From a virus: a DNA stretch of 20,018 bases. The notes under the pieces were generated by a model, which was given only the letters and a program-made list of their open reading frames with translations, was not told where the DNA came from and did not search any database. Where the stretch lies: positions 1 through 20,018 of the IMG/VR virus record IMGVR_UViG_3300017987_000443; one strand, written 5' to 3'. The stretch's first letter is position 1. Each line of letters begins with the position of its first letter. The position numbers and the translations under genes are program-made. Below are positions 1 to 18,967 of the stretch, piece after piece.

Positions 1-134
1 ACGACTTACGGGGCAACCGCCACGCCTGGCGAAAATCCAATAACACCCTCTTTACACCCGGAGACTTCCTAGTTATGCTAAATTAGTGTGAATTGGTTCG
101 GAAATGTAGTATACTTCCCTGGAGGGCGGTTGAC
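1..134. other. Left-edge non-coding stretch upstream of the integrase
   Basis: I see no open reading frame of useful length, tRNA or clear repeat here. A TATACT hexamer at 110-115 could be a -10 box for the integrase, but the hexamer 17 bases upstream (87-92, TGTGAA) is a poor -35, so I do not call a promoter. Because an integrase follows at once, an attachment site could lie here or just outside the window. No second copy is visible within the window to define a core, so this remains inference. Confidence 0.35.
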
Positions 135-1292
135 ATGGTGCGCCCCGAAGTCGCTGAGTACCAAGAGTGGAAGCTAGCCCACCCCGACTGGCCCCTGACG
201 GTCCATCCGAGCGGCCAGTGGAGTAAAAAGGTCAGGGGGCGTGTTCACTACTTCGGCCCGCTGACCGATCCCGACCGGGCGCTGCGACTCTGGCTCCAGG
301 AGCGCGACCACCTTCTGGCCGGACTGATCCCGCCGACACAAGACGGCAGCCTGACGGTCAGGGAACTGCTCGCCAAGCATCTCGCGGACGTGGACGACCG
401 GATCGTCACTGGCCAGCTTTCACCAAGGACTCGCCACGACTATCAGGCCGCCAGTCAACTCCTGGAGGATACCCGGCTCGCCGGGGTGCCGATCGCGTCT
501 CTCGGGCCAGAGCACTTCACAGCAGTCCAGAGCGCCATGGAACGCCGGGGCTGGGGCCCATCGACGATGCGAAATCGCATCACGGCCGTCCGGACTGTCT
601 TCCGCTGGGGTCGTGAGATGGGGCTGTACGACCGAGAGGTTCGCTATGGCCCGAGATTCAAGGCACCTGGAATCCACGCAATCGAGTACGAGCGAGAGGA
701 GCGCGGTGTATCTCGCTTTCTGGACCGGGAGGTAATTCTGGCGGCACTTCGGGTCGCAGAGCCCAGTATGCGGGTTGCGATCCTGCTAGGGATCAACTGC
801 GGCTTCTATCAGAGTGATACGGTCGCCGTGACGCTCGACCGGCTCCACCTGGACGGCGAGATTCCCTACCATGATTTCCGGCGAGTCAAGACGAAGCGCC
901 GTCGCATGGCGGCCCTTTGGCCCGAGACTGTTACGGCGATCCTGGATTACCGAGACAACCATCGTAAGCCGGTCGACCAGACGGAGCGGCGACTACTGCT
1001 GACCAGGCGGCGACGCGCACACAGCGGGCGGGAAGCCCTAGAGCGGGCGTGGCGCAAGCTGCTGGCAGACAAGCATCTCCCCGGGGCCGGAATCGGCTCC
1101 CTCCGCCACACCTACGCCACTGTCGTGGACCTCGTGCCCGATCAGGCCATGATCGACCTTACGATGGGACACGCCCCGAGATCGCTTCAGAAGCGGGTCT
1201 ACTCACAACTCAATCTCAATGAACTAGGGAGACTACAGAAAATAGCGAATACTGTACGCGAATGGTTATTTGATGGATCGGTGCGGGATTAG
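135..1292 (+). CDS. int: Tyrosine recombinase/phage-type integrase with variant active site
   Basis: Likely site-specific recombinase that integrates and excises this element. The 385-residue protein has an N-terminal SAM-like/core-binding region (about residues 75-165) and a C-terminal catalytic domain (about 195-375). In the catalytic domain I see a beta-hairpin lysine in VKTKRRR (about 250-257), Arg324 in SLRHTYAT, His346 in MGHAP and the presumed nucleophile Tyr356 in RVYSQ. Two usual residues are replaced: the first catalytic Arg region reads GINCGF (219-224), and the His of the HxxR box is Gly (GSLR). I recall this variant as common in planctomycete integrases, but cannot verify it here. 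The ATG at 135 is chosen because GGAGG lies at 121-125; a TTG at 93 in the same frame has no such site. The gene faces the same way as the replication operon. Confidence 0.88.
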   Translation: MVRPEVAEYQEWKLAHPDWPLTVHPSGQWSKKVRGRVHYFGPLTDPDRALRLWLQERDHLLAGLIPPTQDGSLTVRELLAKHLADVDDRIVTGQLSPRTRHDYQAASQLLEDTRLAGVPIASLGPEHFTAVQSAMERRGWGPSTMRNRITAVRTVFRWGREMGLYDREVRYGPRFKAPGIHAIEYEREERGVSRFLDREVILAALRVAEPSMRVAILLGINCGFYQSDTVAVTLDRLHLDGEIPYHDFRRVKTKRRRMAALWPETVTAILDYRDNHRKPVDQTERRLLLTRRRRAHSGREALERAWRKLLADKHLPGAGIGSLRHTYATVVDLVPDQAMIDLTMGHAPRSLQKRVYSQLNLNELGRLQKIANTVREWLFDGSVRD

Positions 1293-1294
1293 CC

Positions 1295-1323
1295 TTGACA
1301 GGATGTTTCACCCGGATTAGACT
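1295..1323 (+). promoter_or_regulatory. Sigma-70-type promoter for the XRE regulator gene
   Basis: A perfect -35 hexamer TTGACA (1295-1300) is followed by a 17-base spacer and a -10 hexamer TAGACT (1318-1323, 4 of 6 consensus positions). It begins 3 bases after the integrase stop and lies 26 bases before the XRE start codon, which has a strong AGGAGG ribosome site (1336-1341). Spacing and position fit an autonomous promoter for the regulator. Whether the planctomycete housekeeping sigma factor uses it is not shown by sequence. Confidence 0.65.
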
Positions 1324-1348: not shown

Positions 1349-1603
1349 ATGGTGATTACGGCAGGAATCAAAATGCCTATCGACCCGAAACTAAAACGAC
1401 AGATGCGGCGGGCCCTCTTTGAGGCCAATATCTCTCAGCGCGAACTGGCAGAACGCACCGGCCTGGCCGGCAGCACTATCTCTCTCGTGCTCGGCAATAA
1501 GCCGTGCGACGTGAAGCTCTCCACGCTCGAATCTATTGCTCGCGCTCTCGACTGCGAGCTTCATATTCACTTCCGTGAGTTGCGCGAAGAGCCGCGCGAC
1601 TAG
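1349..1603 (+). CDS. XRE/Cro-CI family helix-turn-helix regulator
   Basis: An 84-residue DNA-binding protein of the lambda-repressor-like (HTH_3) fold. The HTH spans about residues 29-50, with ISQRELAERTGLAGSTIS followed by VLGNK, and the helical bundle continues through LSTLESIARALDCEL (58-72), a typical XRE tail. There is no peptidase or oligomerisation domain, so it resembles a Cro-like or small antitoxin-like regulator more than a full CI repressor. The ATG at 1349 has AGGAGG at 1336-1341 and its own promoter immediately upstream. It lies between the integrase and a winged-helix gene on the same strand, so a lysogeny or early-operon switch role is likely. An orphan HigA-type antitoxin is an alternative, but no toxin partner is visible beside it. 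Confidence 0.8.
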   Translation: MVITAGIKMPIDPKLKRQMRRALFEANISQRELAERTGLAGSTISLVLGNKPCDVKLSTLESIARALDCELHIHFRELREEPRD

Positions 1604-1676: not shown

Positions 1677-2075
1677 ATGCAATTTCTGCTTTCTGATACT
1701 GAAGCCGTCGATCTTATGCGGACGGCGATACGGCGCACAGACGGAATGCTTCTGATCGACATCCCGGATACCCGACTGGCTAGCGTGCGGATCAACAGGC
1801 CGCATCTGCGATTCGACCCTAAGACACGCACGGTTCAGTACGGGCAGCAGAGTCTCCGGTTGCCGGTGGCTGAGTTCAAGCTATTCCGACATCTTCGCGA
1901 GCACGAGCGCGCGACATTCGAGGAAGCGCAGGACGTTGCGTGGGGCAAGCCAATTAGCGATAACGCGATTCGCAAAGCCTGTTCTCGTCTCTCTGAGCGA
2001 CTTCTTGATGCTGGCATTCCACTCGCGATTCTCACGCGACACGGCAGTATTCTCTTAGAAGAAGTCTCTGTCTGA
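1677..2075 (+). CDS. Stand-alone winged-helix (OmpR/Trans_reg_C-like) DNA-binding protein
   Basis: A 132-residue protein whose C-terminal 85 residues fit the winged-helix domain of OmpR-type regulators: a strand pair with FDPKTRTVQYGQQSLRL (46-62), the helix AEFKLFRHLREH (65-76), then VAWGKP, a recognition helix DNAIRKACSRLSERL (95-109) and a wing RHGSILLEE (121-129). There is no phosphoreceiver domain; the first 45 residues hold no Asp pocket I can recognise. The ATG at 1677 is the only usable start before an in-frame stop at 1653, and it lacks a ribosome site. It sits between an XRE gene and the repeat-rich region before the excisionase-like gene, so it may regulate those genes. Function beyond DNA binding is inference. 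Confidence 0.62.
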   Translation: MQFLLSDTEAVDLMRTAIRRTDGMLLIDIPDTRLASVRINRPHLRFDPKTRTVQYGQQSLRLPVAEFKLFRHLREHERATFEEAQDVAWGKPISDNAIRKACSRLSERLLDAGIPLAILTRHGSILLEEVSV

Positions 2076-2126
2076 TTTGTGACGAAAAGTCGCCATTTGT
2101 GACGAATCTCGTCACAGTTGTGACAA
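2076..2126. repeat. TGTGAC direct-repeat array with an 8-bp dyad (candidate operators)
   Basis: TTTGTGACGA occurs at 2076-2085 and again at 2096-2105, exactly 20 bases apart. A third related copy, TTGTGACAA, is at 2118-2126, so the TGTGAC cores fall at 20- and 21-base steps, about two helical turns each. The second copy is also the left arm of a perfect dyad, TGTGACGA (2098-2105) and TCGTCACA (2109-2116), with a 3-base centre. The array lies directly after the winged-helix stop and about 60 bases before the excisionase-like gene that starts the long operon. This layout suits operator sites for the XRE or winged-helix protein, or binding sites for the excisionase-like protein. No convincing promoter hexamers were found beside it. 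Confidence 0.7.
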
Positions 2127-2186
2127 GCCGGCTGGATAGGATTGAAGTATCAGAATTGAGCTTCAACCCTGTTTGACACGGCAATC

Positions 2187-2420
2187 ATGCGACTTTTGAC
2201 CTTCAAAGAAGCTGCCAGGCAACTCTCTTGCTCTGTTCGCACCGTCAGACGCCTTATTGAGCGGGGCGATTTAGCGTGTGTAAACGTCTCGCCGTCCGGC
2301 ACTCGACGACCGCGACGACGGATCAGGGAAGAAGACCTGGCAGCTTTCTCTTTCGCCCACCGGGAAGAGCCTCGCCAAGAGCGTTTGTTGCGCCGGCGAC
2401 AGCGGAGAGCAATCCCATGA
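2187..2420 (+). CDS. Excisionase-like MerR/HTH_17 family DNA-binding protein
   Basis: A 77-residue basic protein of the excisionase/MerR-type HTH_17 family. The pattern LTFKEAARQLSCSVRTVRRL (residues 4-23) followed by IERGDLACVNVSPSG and RRRIREEDLAAF (about 44-55) is the usual winged HTH with its Arg-rich wing and final helix. Such proteins direct integrase toward excision or bind operators. It lies just after the TGTGAC repeat array and begins the long rightward operon. The next small gene starts inside its stop (ATGA at 2417-2420). No strong ribosome site precedes the ATG at 2187. A purely transcriptional role is an alternative, since HTH_17 proteins do both. Confidence 0.75.
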   Translation: MRLLTFKEAARQLSCSVRTVRRLIERGDLACVNVSPSGTRRPRRRIREEDLAAFSFAHREEPRQERLLRRRQRRAIP

Positions 2421-2542
2421 CGGAGGATGAGATGGTCGACTGGAATCAACGACTGGAGGACGGGTGGCGATTGCTGGCGGACGACTACGGTACTGAAGAC
2501 AGCGACGGGTTGACGATTTGGGAACATAAGGAGCCAGAGTAA
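2417..2542 (+). CDS. Small acidic hypothetical protein
   Basis: A 41-residue acidic protein, rich in Asp, Glu and Trp (MTEDEMVDWNQRLEDGW at its start). I do not recognise a family. Its ATG overlaps the excisionase-like stop as ATGA with GGAG at 2404-2407 as ribosome site, and its TAA overlaps the next start as TAATG, so it is probably translationally coupled on both sides. The gene is short, but this double coupling and clean spacing support it being real. A longer reading from an ATG at 2276 is possible, but overlaps the excisionase-like gene out of frame. Confidence 0.55.
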   Translation: MTEDEMVDWNQRLEDGWRLLADDYGTEDSDGLTIWEHKEPE

Positions 2543-3342
2543 TGGCCTACGATTTGAGTCAAATCACATCCGGGAAATGCATTCGAGCACCGCGCATCAT
2601 TCTGTTGGGCGTGGAGAAGATCGGCAAAAGCACGTTTGCCGCCGAAGCAAACAATCCCGTATTCCTTCCGATCGCAGGCGAGGAAGGGATCGACGACTTG
2701 GACGTGCATAAGGTGCCGGTCTGCCAGTCCGTCGGAGACGTACTTGGCTGGTTGCAATTCCTGTATGAGAGCCAGCACGAATTCCAGACAGTCGCAATCG
2801 ACTCCGTGAGTACGCTTGCACTGATGATGCACGCGGAAATCTGCCAACAGGGTGGTGTTAAATCAATCAACGACGTTGGTGGTGGATTCGGCAAAGGCAC
2901 TGACGAGGCTTTGTCACGATGGCAAGACATTACGGCCTGGCTGGACGCACTTCGGCGCGATCGCAACATGACTTCCATTCTGGTTGGCCACGTCAAGATT
3001 CGGCGCTTCGACGATCCAGGGGGCGACTCATACGATCAGTATCAAATGGACGTGCATGAGAAGGTCTCTAACCTTCTCTTCCGTTGGGCCGACAGCATTC
3101 TCTTCTGCAACAACAAGGTGGCCGTCAAGGAGGAAAAGCTGGGCTTCCACAAAGAGAATGTCAAGAAGCGCGGGATCGAAATCAATCCCGGCTCTCGCTG
3201 GCTCTATACGCAGAAACGACCTGCGCATCCAGGCGGAGGGCGTGGCGTATATGGCGAACTCGAATATGAATTACCGCTATCGTGGGAGGCGTTCACGGGG
3301 GCCGTTGTTTCCGCAATGAGGAGGCGCGGGAATAGTGGTTAA
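2542..3342 (+). CDS. Sak4-like/AAA_24 RecA-fold ATPase (phage single-strand annealing)
   Basis: A 266-residue RecA-fold ATPase. Walker A is GVEKIGKST (residues 23-31) and Walker B ends in TVAIDS (83-88, Asp87). The later block TSILVGHVKIRRFDDP fits the AAA_24 family, which includes Sak4-type phage single-strand annealing ATPases. Known Sak4 proteins promote annealing or strand exchange and are helped by a phage SSB. Here a DUF669/SSB-like gene lies two genes downstream and a PD-(D/E)XK nuclease follows, which supports a recombination role. The length suits a compact Sak4/AAA_24 protein. Start is ATG in the TAATG overlap; the preceding gene supplies AAGGAG at 2528-2533. Its end overlaps the EndoVII-like gene by 8 bases. 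A packaging or partition ATPase is less likely given the context. Confidence 0.78.
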   Translation: MAYDLSQITSGKCIRAPRIILLGVEKIGKSTFAAEANNPVFLPIAGEEGIDDLDVHKVPVCQSVGDVLGWLQFLYESQHEFQTVAIDSVSTLALMMHAEICQQGGVKSINDVGGGFGKGTDEALSRWQDITAWLDALRRDRNMTSILVGHVKIRRFDDPGGDSYDQYQMDVHEKVSNLLFRWADSILFCNNKVAVKEEKLGFHKENVKKRGIEINPGSRWLYTQKRPAHPGGGRGVYGELEYELPLSWEAFTGAVVSAMRRRGNSG

Positions 3343-13787: not shown

Positions 13788-14149
13788 CGATCGTACTACC
13801 GCTCCCTGCGCGGGTACTCAGCCCGAATTGCGCGGTTGCTACGCCGGGCGGACGATTCGCGAAGGCCGCAGCAACGAAGCGCTATCGACGGCTAGCACGC
13901 GAAGCCGTCCAGGGGGAATGCCTGGTCGGCTGGGAACGAGCTTCCGTAGCCGCAACCTTCTACTGGCCGAATCAGAGGCGACGAGACACCGACAATGCAA
14001 TCGCGAGCCTGAAGGCAGCTTACGACGGGCTTGTAGATGCTGGACTGCTGCCCGACGACGACTACGAACACATGCAACGCGAGCGGCCCGTATTCGAGAT
14101 TGACCGTGACCACCCCAGGGTGGAATTACTTGTGACGAGACTTCAGTGA
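13769..14149 (+). CDS. rusA: RusA-family Holliday junction resolvase
   Basis: A 126-residue protein of the length usual for RusA. The family signature is clear: RRDTDNAIASLKAAYDGLVD (71-90) gives Asp73, Asp75, Asn76, Lys82 and Asp86, and GLLPDDDY (92-99) adds the acidic residues that complete the metal site. RusA homodimers resolve Holliday junctions during recombination and replication, complementing the EndoVII-like and Fe-S nuclease genes upstream. It overlaps the PrimPol gene by 19 bases with no strong ribosome site of its own, and its stop lies 8 bases before the phosphoesterase ATG. Confidence 0.88.
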   Translation: MDAETVTIVLPLPARVLSPNCAVATPGGRFAKAAATKRYRRLAREAVQGECLVGWERASVAATFYWPNQRRRDTDNAIASLKAAYDGLVDAGLLPDDDYEHMQRERPVFEIDRDHPRVELLVTRLQ

Positions 14150-15922: not shown

Positions 15923-16567
15923 ATGCTGATTACTCACATCTTTCTTGACCTGGACGACGTGTGCAACATGTTCACGATGCACGCGCTGTCGCGAGTTGGC
16001 TGCAAAGTGGAGCCGAATGAACTCGAAAAGTACGATCCTAAATGGGGCTTCGATATCGTAAAGGCAGCAAATTCACTCCTCACCCCAATCACCGGGAGCG
16101 ACCTCGCTTTCGAGTCTGCGAAGGCATTTTGGGACGAACTTACGGGGCCGGAGGTATGGCGAGACGCACCGGAGTCTCCGGAATTCCGGCCGCTTCTGGC
16201 ATTTTGCCGGGCGGTTGCGAGGCGGAACATCTGCCTGCTTACCAGCCCCGTGCGCGATCCCGGTTGCGTGACTGGCAAAATGGAATGGATTCACAGGCAC
16301 ATGCCGAAATGGATGCACCGACAATTCCTGATCGGACCTCAGAAGCATCTACTTGCCAGCGAAGTCGCGCTGTTAATCGACGACAGCGACGAGAACGTGA
16401 ATGCTTTCCGTACAGCCGGAGGCTACGCCTCTCTCTTCCCGAGGCCGTGGAACTCTCGACACGAACTCTGGCGAGACCCGCTAGGTACGGTATTTTCGGA
16501 CGTAACGCGCATTGTGAGGGCGCATGACCGTACCGGCGCTCAACTCCGGCCACCGGCGAAAGCATGA
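15923..16567 (+). CDS. HAD-superfamily phosphatase, 5'-deoxynucleotidase (NT5C)-like
   Basis: A 214-residue HAD hydrolase. Motif I is FLDLDDV (Asp9 nucleophile, Asp11), motif II Thr107/Ser108 in LLTSP, Lys141 in PQKHLL, and motif III LIDDSDEN (Asp153, Asp154). Length and the DLDDV start fit NT5C-type 5'(3')-deoxyribonucleotidases. It directly follows a dNTP diphosphohydrolase-like gene: together they could turn dNTP to dNMP to nucleoside, a reasonable inference. ATG at 15923 is used rather than TTG at 15890; ribosome site is weak (GAGAG). The stop overlaps the next start (ATGA). Confidence 0.75.
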   Translation: MLITHIFLDLDDVCNMFTMHALSRVGCKVEPNELEKYDPKWGFDIVKAANSLLTPITGSDLAFESAKAFWDELTGPEVWRDAPESPEFRPLLAFCRAVARRNICLLTSPVRDPGCVTGKMEWIHRHMPKWMHRQFLIGPQKHLLASEVALLIDDSDENVNAFRTAGGYASLFPRPWNSRHELWRDPLGTVFSDVTRIVRAHDRTGAQLRPPAKA

Positions 16568-17133
16568 CGGGAGCTTTCGCTTGGATCGGCCGGCTGGCCG
16601 AATGGATCGGGCAATGGATTCCCCAGGTAAAGCACCTGGAGTGTACGGACATTGCCGTGACGATTACCCGGGGCTCTGTGGTTCGCGTGCGGAGCCCCGG
16701 GTTAGTGGTCCTCTGGCCGTTCTGGACAAGCTACTACAGCCGGCCAGGGAATGTGCAGACCGCAATCCCACCGACCAAGACGCTCACTACGGCGGACGGG
16801 AAGTCCGTCGTGGCGGGCTGCATGGTCCGATACGAGTTCGCAAGAGACGTTGAGTCCGTCACCCGGGCCCTGATCGAGACCGACAGCGTTGAGGATTCGC
16901 TGGCCGATGAAGTGTGCGCCGTGCTCTGCGCCCTCGTGACCAGCAAGACCTTCGCTGAACTAATGGAAGACCGCACGGCCATTAACCGCTCGCTGACAGG
17001 CCGGATCGGAACTCAACTTGCCCAGTACGGAGTCCGCGTGCTCCGGGCACAGCTAGCCGACCTGGGACAATGTGTTAATTTGAACCATACCGGCTACCAG
17101 CCGGGGATCAATTATGGAGAGGAGGAGGAGTAA
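16564..17133 (+). CDS. SPFH/band-7 domain protein
   Basis: A 189-residue protein with an SPFH (stomatin/prohibitin/flotillin/HflK) domain at about 28-170: VRVRSPGLVVLWPFW (40-54), TADGKSVVAGCMVRYEFARD (76-95), then helical TSKTFAELMEDRTAINRSL and VRVLRAQLADLG. The N terminus (AFAWIGRLAEWIGQWIP) looks amphipathic and may sit on the membrane in place of a transmembrane anchor; no long coiled-coil flotillin tail is present. SPFH proteins scaffold membrane complexes, and some guard against proteases or phages. It starts in ATGA overlapping the HAD gene and ends in an acidic GEEEE. Its role in a replication operon is unknown. Confidence 0.7.
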   Translation: MTGAFAWIGRLAEWIGQWIPQVKHLECTDIAVTITRGSVVRVRSPGLVVLWPFWTSYYSRPGNVQTAIPPTKTLTTADGKSVVAGCMVRYEFARDVESVTRALIETDSVEDSLADEVCAVLCALVTSKTFAELMEDRTAINRSLTGRIGTQLAQYGVRVLRAQLADLGQCVNLNHTGYQPGINYGEEEE

Positions 17134-17892
17134 GTGCAACACCGACTAATTCACGGCGACTGCCTAGAGGTTCTGCCTACCCTCCCGCACGCCACCTGCC
17201 TGTTCGCCGACCCGCCAGACAACATCGGCCTGAAGTACGCGGAAGGCAACGACAGGCTTCCCAACTGGGAATACATCAACCTGTTCGGGGCCTGGCTGAA
17301 GCTGTTCATCCACTCGGCAGACATTGTGTGGGTGTCGTACAATGCGAAGTGGTTTGCGCAGGTCGGCACAATCGTGGATCGACTGCTTAACCTCTTCCGT
17401 TGGCTCCGGGCCCGGCAATGCATCCAGACCTTTACCTTTGGCCAGCATCGGCAAACGAGCCTCGGTAACAACTACCGACCCCTGCTCCTGCTGCATGACG
17501 AATGCGCAAAGTTCTATCCGGACCAAATCCGAATCCCATCATGGAGACAGAAACATGGCGACAAACGAGCCGACCCGAGAGGCCGAGTTCCGGGAGATGT
17601 ATTCGATTTCCCGAGAGTGGTTGGAAACTCTAAACAACGCCGATCTTGGTGCCCTACGCAACTGCATGAAGGTCTTGTCGAGCGATGCCTACGTTTTTCG
17701 ACGCCTGATTCTGGGGGCGGAACTGTCATTGATCCTTTCGCTGGAAGCGGGACCACTTTTCGTGTATGCGCGAGAATCAATCGAGAATGCATCCTGATCG
17801 AGAAGTGCAGCGCCTACTGTTCCGAGATTGCAAAAGAACACGCCCTGGAGATCGAGAGACCTCTAGGGCGTGCAGGGAATGCGGCTGCTTAA
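17134..17892 (+). CDS. Beta-class DNA methyltransferase (N6/N4-type)
   Basis: A 252-residue amino-methyltransferase in the beta order: catalytic motif IV first, then the AdoMet motif. HGDCLEVLPTL (7-17) precedes ADPPDNIGL (25-33), where the usual DPPY is DPPD. Near the C terminus, PTQLHEGLVERCL (174-186) leads to VIDPFAGSGTTF (198-209), the AdoMet-binding loop. It lacks a separable target-recognition domain beyond a central loop and has no restriction partner, so it is an orphan phage methylase, likely protecting or marking the DNA. GTG at 17134 follows GGAGGAGGAG at 17120-17130. The 3' end is overlapped by a zinc-ribbon gene. Confidence 0.82.
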   Translation: MQHRLIHGDCLEVLPTLPHATCLFADPPDNIGLKYAEGNDRLPNWEYINLFGAWLKLFIHSADIVWVSYNAKWFAQVGTIVDRLLNLFRWLRARQCIQTFTFGQHRQTSLGNNYRPLLLLHDECAKFYPDQIRIPSWRQKHGDKRADPRGRVPGDVFDFPRVVGNSKQRRSWCPTQLHEGLVERCLRFSTPDSGGGTVIDPFAGSGTTFRVCARINRECILIEKCSAYCSEIAKEHALEIERPLGRAGNAAA

Positions 17893-17972
17893 TGGTCCGC
17901 GTCGGGCAGTTCTACGTTTGTCCTAACGCGGACTGGGCCGGGAAGTGCGGGAAGCTATTCCCTCTCCTCTAA
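17787..17972 (+). CDS. Small topoisomerase-type C4 zinc-ribbon protein
   Basis: A 61-residue basic protein with a C-terminal zinc ribbon: C29, C32, C45 and C54 in CRECGCLMVRVGQFYVC and DWAGKC. The VRVGQFYVC pattern resembles the C4 zinc finger found at the ends of topoisomerase I. The start is uncertain: no start codon lies between the ATG at 17787 and the first Cys pair, so the gene must overlap the methyltransferase by about 106 bases, or be read from an ATG at 17766. Its end overlaps the convergent SprT gene by 18 bases. DNA or RNA binding is likely. Confidence 0.5.
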   Translation: MHPDREVQRLLFRDCKRTRPGDRETSRACRECGCLMVRVGQFYVCPNADWAGKCGKLFPLL

Positions 17973-18539
17973 GTCTTCCGGAGACAAGGTGGAGCCACAC
18001 GGGCACGCCGGGAGCCCGACTTCGATCCACTTTTGCGTCGTGCGCACTGTATACCCGCAGTCCTGGCATGACAGCTTCTTCATGCGGGTCGACTGCTTAG
18101 GCTCCGCGTTGCTGTATTTCAACTCAGCATGCGGATACTTGCCGATCTCACTGGCGATTTTCTTCAGTTTGATTTTCAGTTCATCGCTTGCCGTCGTGGC
18201 GGTCATTTTCCCTTCCAGCCCTACCGCCCTGGCCAGCGCGCCGAAGCGCTTGCCGTGCTTCTGGTCAACTCCAACCGCGCAGTGTACTAGCTCGTGAACG
18301 AGCACGGCCAACACTTTAATCGGATCGTCCAAGAGTGGCGAGATGAAAATCTCAAAGCTTCCATCTGCGCTCTGTTGGCTACACCACGCTTCCCCGATTC
18401 TCTTGCGGCGCTTTGCAAGAGCCGACTTAGACGGCCACGAGCACGAGGCCCGGACCTTGCGCGGGATCGGCTGTCCAGCTTCGCGGAACATTGGACGGAG
18501 CGCGCTAACGCACTCCGTCAACCATCGCTCTCTGTTCAT
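17955..18539 (-). CDS. SprT-like zinc metalloprotease with C-terminal zinc ribbon
   Basis: A 194-residue protein of the SprT/Spartan family. The zinc-binding HELVH (82-86) is followed by His95 in QKHGKRF (93-99), the third ligand context, and the C-terminal ribbon has C158/C161 (SCQDCG) and C179/C181 (CPCG). Spartan relatives cleave proteins crosslinked to DNA; bacterial SprT roles are unclear. The ATG at 18537-18539 has GAGG 6 bases upstream on this strand and overlaps the upstream gene's stop as TGATG; a GTG just before it is too close. The 3' end overlaps the zinc-ribbon gene by 18 bases. DNA-protein crosslink repair during phage replication is an attractive inference. Confidence 0.82.
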   Translation of the reverse strand: MNRERWLTECVSALRPMFREAGQPIPRKVRASCSWPSKSALAKRRKRIGEAWCSQQSADGSFEIFISPLLDDPIKVLAVLVHELVHCAVGVDQKHGKRFGALARAVGLEGKMTATTASDELKIKLKKIASEIGKYPHAELKYSNAEPKQSTRMKKLSCQDCGYTVRTTQKWIEVGLPACPCGSTLSPEDLEERE

Positions 18540-18967
18540 CACTTACCTCTCTCTGAAGCGTCACGCTTTCGGTTGATCCACCGCCGGCCACACACCGACA
18601 CGAGGTTCCGCTTGTTCCGCTTCGCTAGGTCGCGAAAGAGCGGATGGTCAATCACGCCAAGCAGATACAAATCATGCAACTCAATCGCAACGGACAGCAG
18701 TCTCTTGCTTTCCCGTTGTGCTCTAAGCTCGTACAACAATGGCCCGCGGGTATGGGTTGGCAATTGAGTGTTGCCGCACATTGGACAAAGCCTACGAAGC
18801 CTTTCCCGCCGTTCCGCGGCCCGCCTTGCCCGTAGCTGGGCGTTGTAGCAATCCTTGCACAGCGCCGCCACTCTCTGGGCGCCACCGGGCCTAGCCGGGC
18901 CTTTGAGGGCGAAGTCCCCCAGTGGCTTAGTGTGCCCACAACGAGTGCAGACCTTATACTCTGCCAT
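18539..18967 (-). CDS. Zinc-module protein related to the EndoVII N terminus
   Basis: A 142-residue basic protein with an N-terminal module C7/C10...C37/C40 (CTRCGHTKPLGDFALK, then CKDC), very similar to the first modules of the genes at 3335 and 3911. A further pair C61/C64 (CPMC) follows an Arg-rich helix. The C-terminal two-thirds hold a Leu-rich helix (ELHDLYLLGVIDH) and a basic tail with HNH-like hints (DHPLF) but no clear catalytic box. It begins at ATG with a weak GGGGA site on this strand, and its stop overlaps the SprT-like start. Branched-DNA or RNA binding is possible. Confidence 0.65.
   Translation of the reverse strand: MAEYKVCTRCGHTKPLGDFALKGPARPGGAQRVAALCKDCYNAQLRARRAAERRERLRRLCPMCGNTQLPTHTRGPLLYELRAQRESKRLLSVAIELHDLYLLGVIDHPLFRDLAKRNKRNLVSVCGRRWINRKRDASERGK

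Follow-up and report, generated by a model that had tools for sequence, protein, structure and literature searches.

Gene layout and TGTGAC repeats

The DNA analysed (the window) is a virus record of 20,018 bases. It carries an int gene, a σ70-type promoter that precedes a gene pair for an XRE regulator and a winged-helix (wHTH) protein, and a long operon that begins with xis and a Sak4 gene, followed by SSB, helicase, primase and RusA genes (Table 1). The XRE gene is probably co-transcribed with the wHTH gene, and their promoter, with TTGACA and a TATACT-like box, was found also in the related loci L003, L005, L007 and L073. The gap between the wHTH stop codon and the excisionase gene is occupied by TGTGAC repeats. 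At its end the operon carries a Band_7/SPFH-domain gene and then a DNA methylase gene (N6_N4_Mtase; 16564-17892), and a gene for an SprT-like protein lies at this far end on the opposite strand (17955-18542, −). An SprT-like protein gene is found directly 5′ of the wHTH gene in L072 (1784-2377) and L080 (2396-2974).

Table 1. Genes and sequence elements of the window discussed in the text.
Feature	Position	Strand	Description
int gene	93-1292		
σ70-type promoter TTGACA-17-TAGACT	1295..1323	+	Precedes the XRE-wHTH pair; promoter scan 10/12
XRE (HTH_26/HTH_3) regulator gene	1349..1603	+	Pfam HTH_26 4.4e-10
wHTH gene	1677..2075	+	132-aa product; predicted PhoB/OmpR-type effector domain (residues 41-131), receiver-less
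Accessory upstream half-site TTGTGACGA	2077..2085	+	In window and L003; missing from L005 and L007
Half-site h1, TGTGAC	2098..2103	+	
Half-site h2, inverted	2111..2116	−	GTCACA on + strand; complementarity to h1 retained in relatives
Half-site h3, TGTGAC	2119..2124	+	At position of −35 box
−10-like hexamer TAGGAT	2137..2142	+	12 bp past h3; proposed operon promoter
Second dyad TTGAAG-N13-CTTCAA	2142..2166	+	Directly behind −10 hexamer; spans presumed transcription start
Excisionase-like HTH_17 gene (xis)	2187..2420	+	First operon gene; Pfam HTH_17 1.9e-11; PHROG excisionase families
Sak4-like single-strand annealing protein gene	2542..3342	+	PHROG Sak4-like 5e-28; Pfam AAA_24 1.7e-35

TGTGAC occurs ten times on the two strands of the window, which is near chance (mean 8.3), and four of these copies fall inside 47 bases: three forward ones starting at 2078, 2098 and 2119 and the inverted one. 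Their number is ordinary, their clustering is not. The original prediction described three copies at 20- and 21-base steps, and TTGTGAC indeed begins at 2077, 2097 and 2118. The dyad that it reported is perfect (TGTGACGA at 2098-2105 and TCGTCACA at 2109-2116, with a 3-base centre), and the single further exact copy that it noticed was confirmed within the RusA gene (TTGTGACGA, 14130-14138). We take this last copy for chance because the L004 record has no TTGTGAC beyond the repeat module while the L003 record has one, elsewhere. The uppermost copy of the cluster is limited to the window and its closest relatives and is considered accessory because L005 and L007 lack it. The feature is better described as a forward-inverted-forward triple (h1, h2 and h3; 2098-2124). 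In the 83-base stretch that starts at the wHTH stop codon, none of 1000 dinucleotide shuffles reached its three-half-site score. A terminator at the dyad was rejected, as no T-run follows it on the + strand. The second dyad recurs in altered forms in L005 (TCGAAG/CTTCGA), L053 (TCGAGGT/ACCTCGA) and L058 (AATCGA/TCGATT) and is not evident in L046.

Conservation of the module and of its distance to a −10 hexamer

The relatives compared are virus contigs with the same gene order: L002 (the same phage), L003/L004, L007 and L005, the wHTH proteins of the last three groups being 84%, 76% and 62% identical to that of the window, respectively. A Sak4 search gave 80 more loci, with 10 further distinct ones carrying the wHTH gene. 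The sample comprises 14 distinct loci with this gene, all metagenomic. The closest relatives retain the core TTGTGAC-N7/8-GTCACAGNTGTGAC, whose inner arms vary in step (GA/TC, AG/CT, G/C), and in the three closest ones the second forward step is 22 instead of 21. Each of the 14 distinct phages has a module of the triple type upstream of its xis/sak4 operon, the forward copies being spaced by 21-22 bp. The comparison across relatives that had been proposed as a check of the repeats therefore found their spacing kept and did not refute the reading. The same-face phasing of three direct copies emphasized initially is not what the relatives conserve; they keep a middle half-site in inverted orientation and a constant distance from the module to the −10 hexamer.

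The half-site letters themselves vary across phages. Besides TGTGAC we found TCTGAC (L073), TGTTAC (L046), TGCACC (TGCACC/CGCACC in L043, L044 and L072), TGCAAC, GGGCC (L057 and L080), AGCAA and TCTCA (L053). In the 14-row alignment h1 and h2 nevertheless pair in 87% of cells, and 18 changes affect both sides; pairing drops to 25-43% when the alignment is slid by 1-3 columns and is matched by none of 500 shuffles. The half-site registers of L053, L046, L047 and L058 were assigned visually or from the score, and L047 has a poor h2. In 12 of the 14 loci the module directly follows the wHTH stop codon and scores well above shuffles. It is farther downstream of the wHTH gene in L047 and L058, both recognised with the help of context; in L058 it comes after a terminator-like hairpin, and in L047 a reverse-strand gene splits it from the wHTH gene. 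That the L047 module has kept its place at the promoter rather than at the wHTH stop codon points to a promoter element and argues against a role at the 3′ end of the gene or as a terminator. The intervening L047 gene (3295-3651) is small, probably codes for a membrane protein and looks like an inserted cargo gene. Module plus −10 hexamer were found in 11 of 15 sak4 loci with a wHTH gene and in 2 of 56 without it (Fisher 4e-8; near-identical loci are included, the counts being not fully independent). A one-mismatch palindrome at the end of the L007 record, considered as a second operator, is apparently inside a reading frame and was taken as chance.

Wider scans returned little. No relative was found in two genome contig scans, nor a useful wHTH relative in phage and plasmid collections. 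Scanning viral contigs for TGTGACN6-10GTCACANNTGTGAC gave 21 stretches, and those outside the wHTH-linked family look unrelated or coding. A similar triple, TGTGACTT-N5-AAGTCACACGTGTGACTT, is present in L021 (2199-2227), L033 (341-369) and L038 (495-523), with no wHTH relative found nearby; it may represent an independent operator built in the same way. L011, retrieved through a 20-bp direct pair, was discarded as an unrelated contig. Its segment 8701-8900 has several TTGTGACGATT copies at ~20-base steps in an iteron-like, non-coding-looking arrangement.

A hexamer NANNNT, which has the two key letters of the σ70 −10 box, starts 11-12 bp past h3 in 12 of 12 loci aligned on this half-site (none of 3000 shuffles when the best offset was taken). 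The same holds for L047 and L058, making 14 of 14. At the −35 position, 16-18 bp before the −10 hexamer, agreement with TTGACA never exceeded 2/6 in the nine loci examined, in contrast to the XRE promoter of these phages with its proper TTGACA; the half-sites thus appear to take the place of the −35 box. In E. coli, 10 bp separate the pho boxes from a downstream TAN3T/A −10 sequence (PMC1906773). The geometry of PhoB-type class II promoters, in which the site replaces the −35 box ~10 bp before a TANNNT −10 hexamer, is that observed here at 11-12 bp.

The wHTH protein and its covariation with the half-sites

The AlphaFold2 model of the wHTH protein (pLDDT 87.8) resembles AdeR (Z 11.8) and PhoB (Z 10.6) over residues 41-131 and also matches the DNA-binding domains of CadC (Z 10.6) and ToxR (Z 9.4); profile comparison with PhoB gave E 5e-4. 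As judged from this model, the protein is a PhoB/OmpR winged-helix effector domain without receiver: its 132 residues, of which ~40 precede the effector domain, are too few for an additional N-terminal receiver domain. Family profiles capture it poorly. The window protein has no match to Pfam PF00486 and so falls short of its gathering score, and 4 of 13 members give weak matches (best E 0.012); there is also a weak match to phrog_731. Residue E82, invariant in the 13 full-length wHTH proteins, aligns with PhoB Glu177, part of the σ-contacting acidic patch (PMC3973317).

Computation also revealed a covariation between protein and site. Only columns 100 (K/A/R) and 120 (T/A/S) of the 132 split perfectly according to the three recurrent half-site classes. 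When all 14 loci are considered, half-site positions 3-4 are best predicted by residue 100 (K:TG, A:CA, R:GG, Q:TG, T:TT, C:TC), and positions 1-2 and 5 by residue 104. These two residues align with PhoB Val197 and Arg201, which in the PhoB-DNA structure contact a thymine and a guanine, respectively (PMC3973317), while residues 120 and 121 are in the wing. A tree built without the specificity residues requires 3 changes for the GCA class and 2 for the GGG class, and a single origin has 0% bootstrap support. The rest of the L057 protein, for instance, is nearest to L072 and L043, yet L057 has its half-site and helix in common with L080. Because the tree fails to group the half-site classes, residue and site seem to have changed together more than once, beyond what kinship accounts for. 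The prediction that follows is that protein-operator pairs in related phages should not cross-react.

Binding of the triple by the wHTH protein is thus very probable, with covariation as its strong support. The initial proposal had left the choice between the XRE, winged-helix and excisionase-like proteins. A binding site is still predicted, and covariation with the recognition helix singles out the winged-helix protein; XRE is an unlikely and the excisionase a less likely binder. The half-sites stand in the −35 place at the distance typical of PhoB-type class II promoters, which suggests that the protein activates the early operon. Activation is probable in so far as it follows from the replacement of the −35 box. 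Our best explanation is that the TGTGAC repeats are probably the operator of the receiver-less PhoB/OmpR-type protein encoded immediately before them (1677-2075), predicted to be a class II activator of the xis-sak4-SSB-helicase-primase operon. The protein would be produced from the XRE promoter and occupy the three half-sites, perhaps cooperatively, 12 bp before the −10 hexamer. Bound in the −35 place, it would recruit RNA polymerase and so switch on the operon, with a presumed consequence for the lytic programme.

Alternative explanations and comparison with known systems

The main rival, although rather unlikely, is that the same protein binds the same site as a repressor; it would sit over the −35 region in an extended −10 promoter and silence the early operon during lysogeny. 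Bound protein might also block polymerase there, since the half-sites overlap the −35 region, and the wHTH gene has a lysogeny-type neighbourhood alongside int and XRE. An extended −10 (TGA-TAGGAT) is found in L005, L073 and L047 and might need no −35 box. However, this extension is missing from most loci, the window included (GGATAGGAT), and repression fits poorly with the lack of a −35-like hexamer in the loci checked and with an invariant E82 at the position of a σ-contacting residue.

Much less probable is an RNA element, an attenuator or switch in which h2 pairs with h1 or h3 within a leader RNA that starts at the XRE promoter. The forward-inverted-forward order would permit two exclusive hairpins, complementarity is retained through both-sided changes and certain loci fold better than shuffles. 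The favoured hairpin is, however, not constant (h1:h2 in the window, L005, L073 and L046; h2:h3 in L043, L057 and L080; a larger stem in L053), and h2:h3 pairing is weak across the family (66%). A structured leader with one conserved fold was rejected on these differences and on an Rfam search that gave no match. An RNA element also leaves the fixed −10 hexamer and the covariation with a DNA-recognition helix unexplained, and in L047 a reverse gene separates the module from the wHTH gene. Equally improbable is binding by the XRE or the excisionase-like protein, even if both genes adjoin the site and xis is the first downstream gene in most loci. XRE is an unlikely binder because the fetched flanks of six relatives (L043, L044, L057, L058, L072 and L080) showed no XRE gene next to the module, and the excisionase a less likely one because L058 has the module and no detectable xis; neither accounts for the correlation with residues 100 and 104 of the wHTH protein. 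That the repeats are an iteron array of a replication origin, or cluster by chance, is scarcely credible: direct repeats do lie near replication genes, but there are only two to three copies and no array, and they are tied to a promoter-like hexamer in a layout kept in 14 phages while its letters changed.

The activator reading has one point against it in the architecture of the site, which is part-inverted, as sites of OmpR/PhoB-family regulators are described as direct repeats (PMC4832192). The proposed system is like PhoB and its pho box in the winged-helix effector fold, the α3 base-contact positions and a site ~10-12 bp before a TANNNT −10 hexamer in the −35 place. It differs in lacking a receiver, hence a phosphorylation input, in having one site per genome, and in a site made of an inverted pair plus a third half-site (forward spacing 21-22 bp) where PhoB has tandem repeats 10-11 bp apart. 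ToxR and CadC, OmpR-type regulators that lack a receiver or are fused differently, also couple a PhoB-type DNA-binding domain to another input, but they reside in the membrane and carry the wHTH domain N-terminally, whereas the phage protein is soluble-looking, 132 aa long, and has its wHTH domain C-terminal to the ~40 first residues. Among phage class II activators, such as λ CII, a small activator has its site in the −35 region of a phage promoter, as proposed here; CII has another fold and other half-sites, and serves lysogeny promoters instead of an excision/replication operon. In the immunity groups of lambdoid phages repressor and operator diversify together between related phages. The joint diversification is the same here, but the wHTH protein belongs to another family, is probably an activator and has one three-half-site operator. 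We found no description of this wHTH phage family in open-licence papers, which is weak evidence of absence.

The analysis proposes a function and a target for a phage protein family without known function, in which a PhoB-type domain apparently acts on a part-inverted site rather than on tandem repeats. We tentatively suggest that a clade of temperate phages has a receiver-less PhoB-type activator with a part-inverted three-half-site operator, and that these diversified into orthogonal pairs set mainly by residues 100 and 104, with a contribution of wing residues 120 and 121. If true, this would be a natural recognition code for the PhoB-type fold and a counterpart of immunity groups built on an activator. 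The natural specificity variants, with their predicted specificity residues, are ready for swapping. The analysis also suggests that related phages may avoid cross-activating each other's early switches through joint change of activator and operator.
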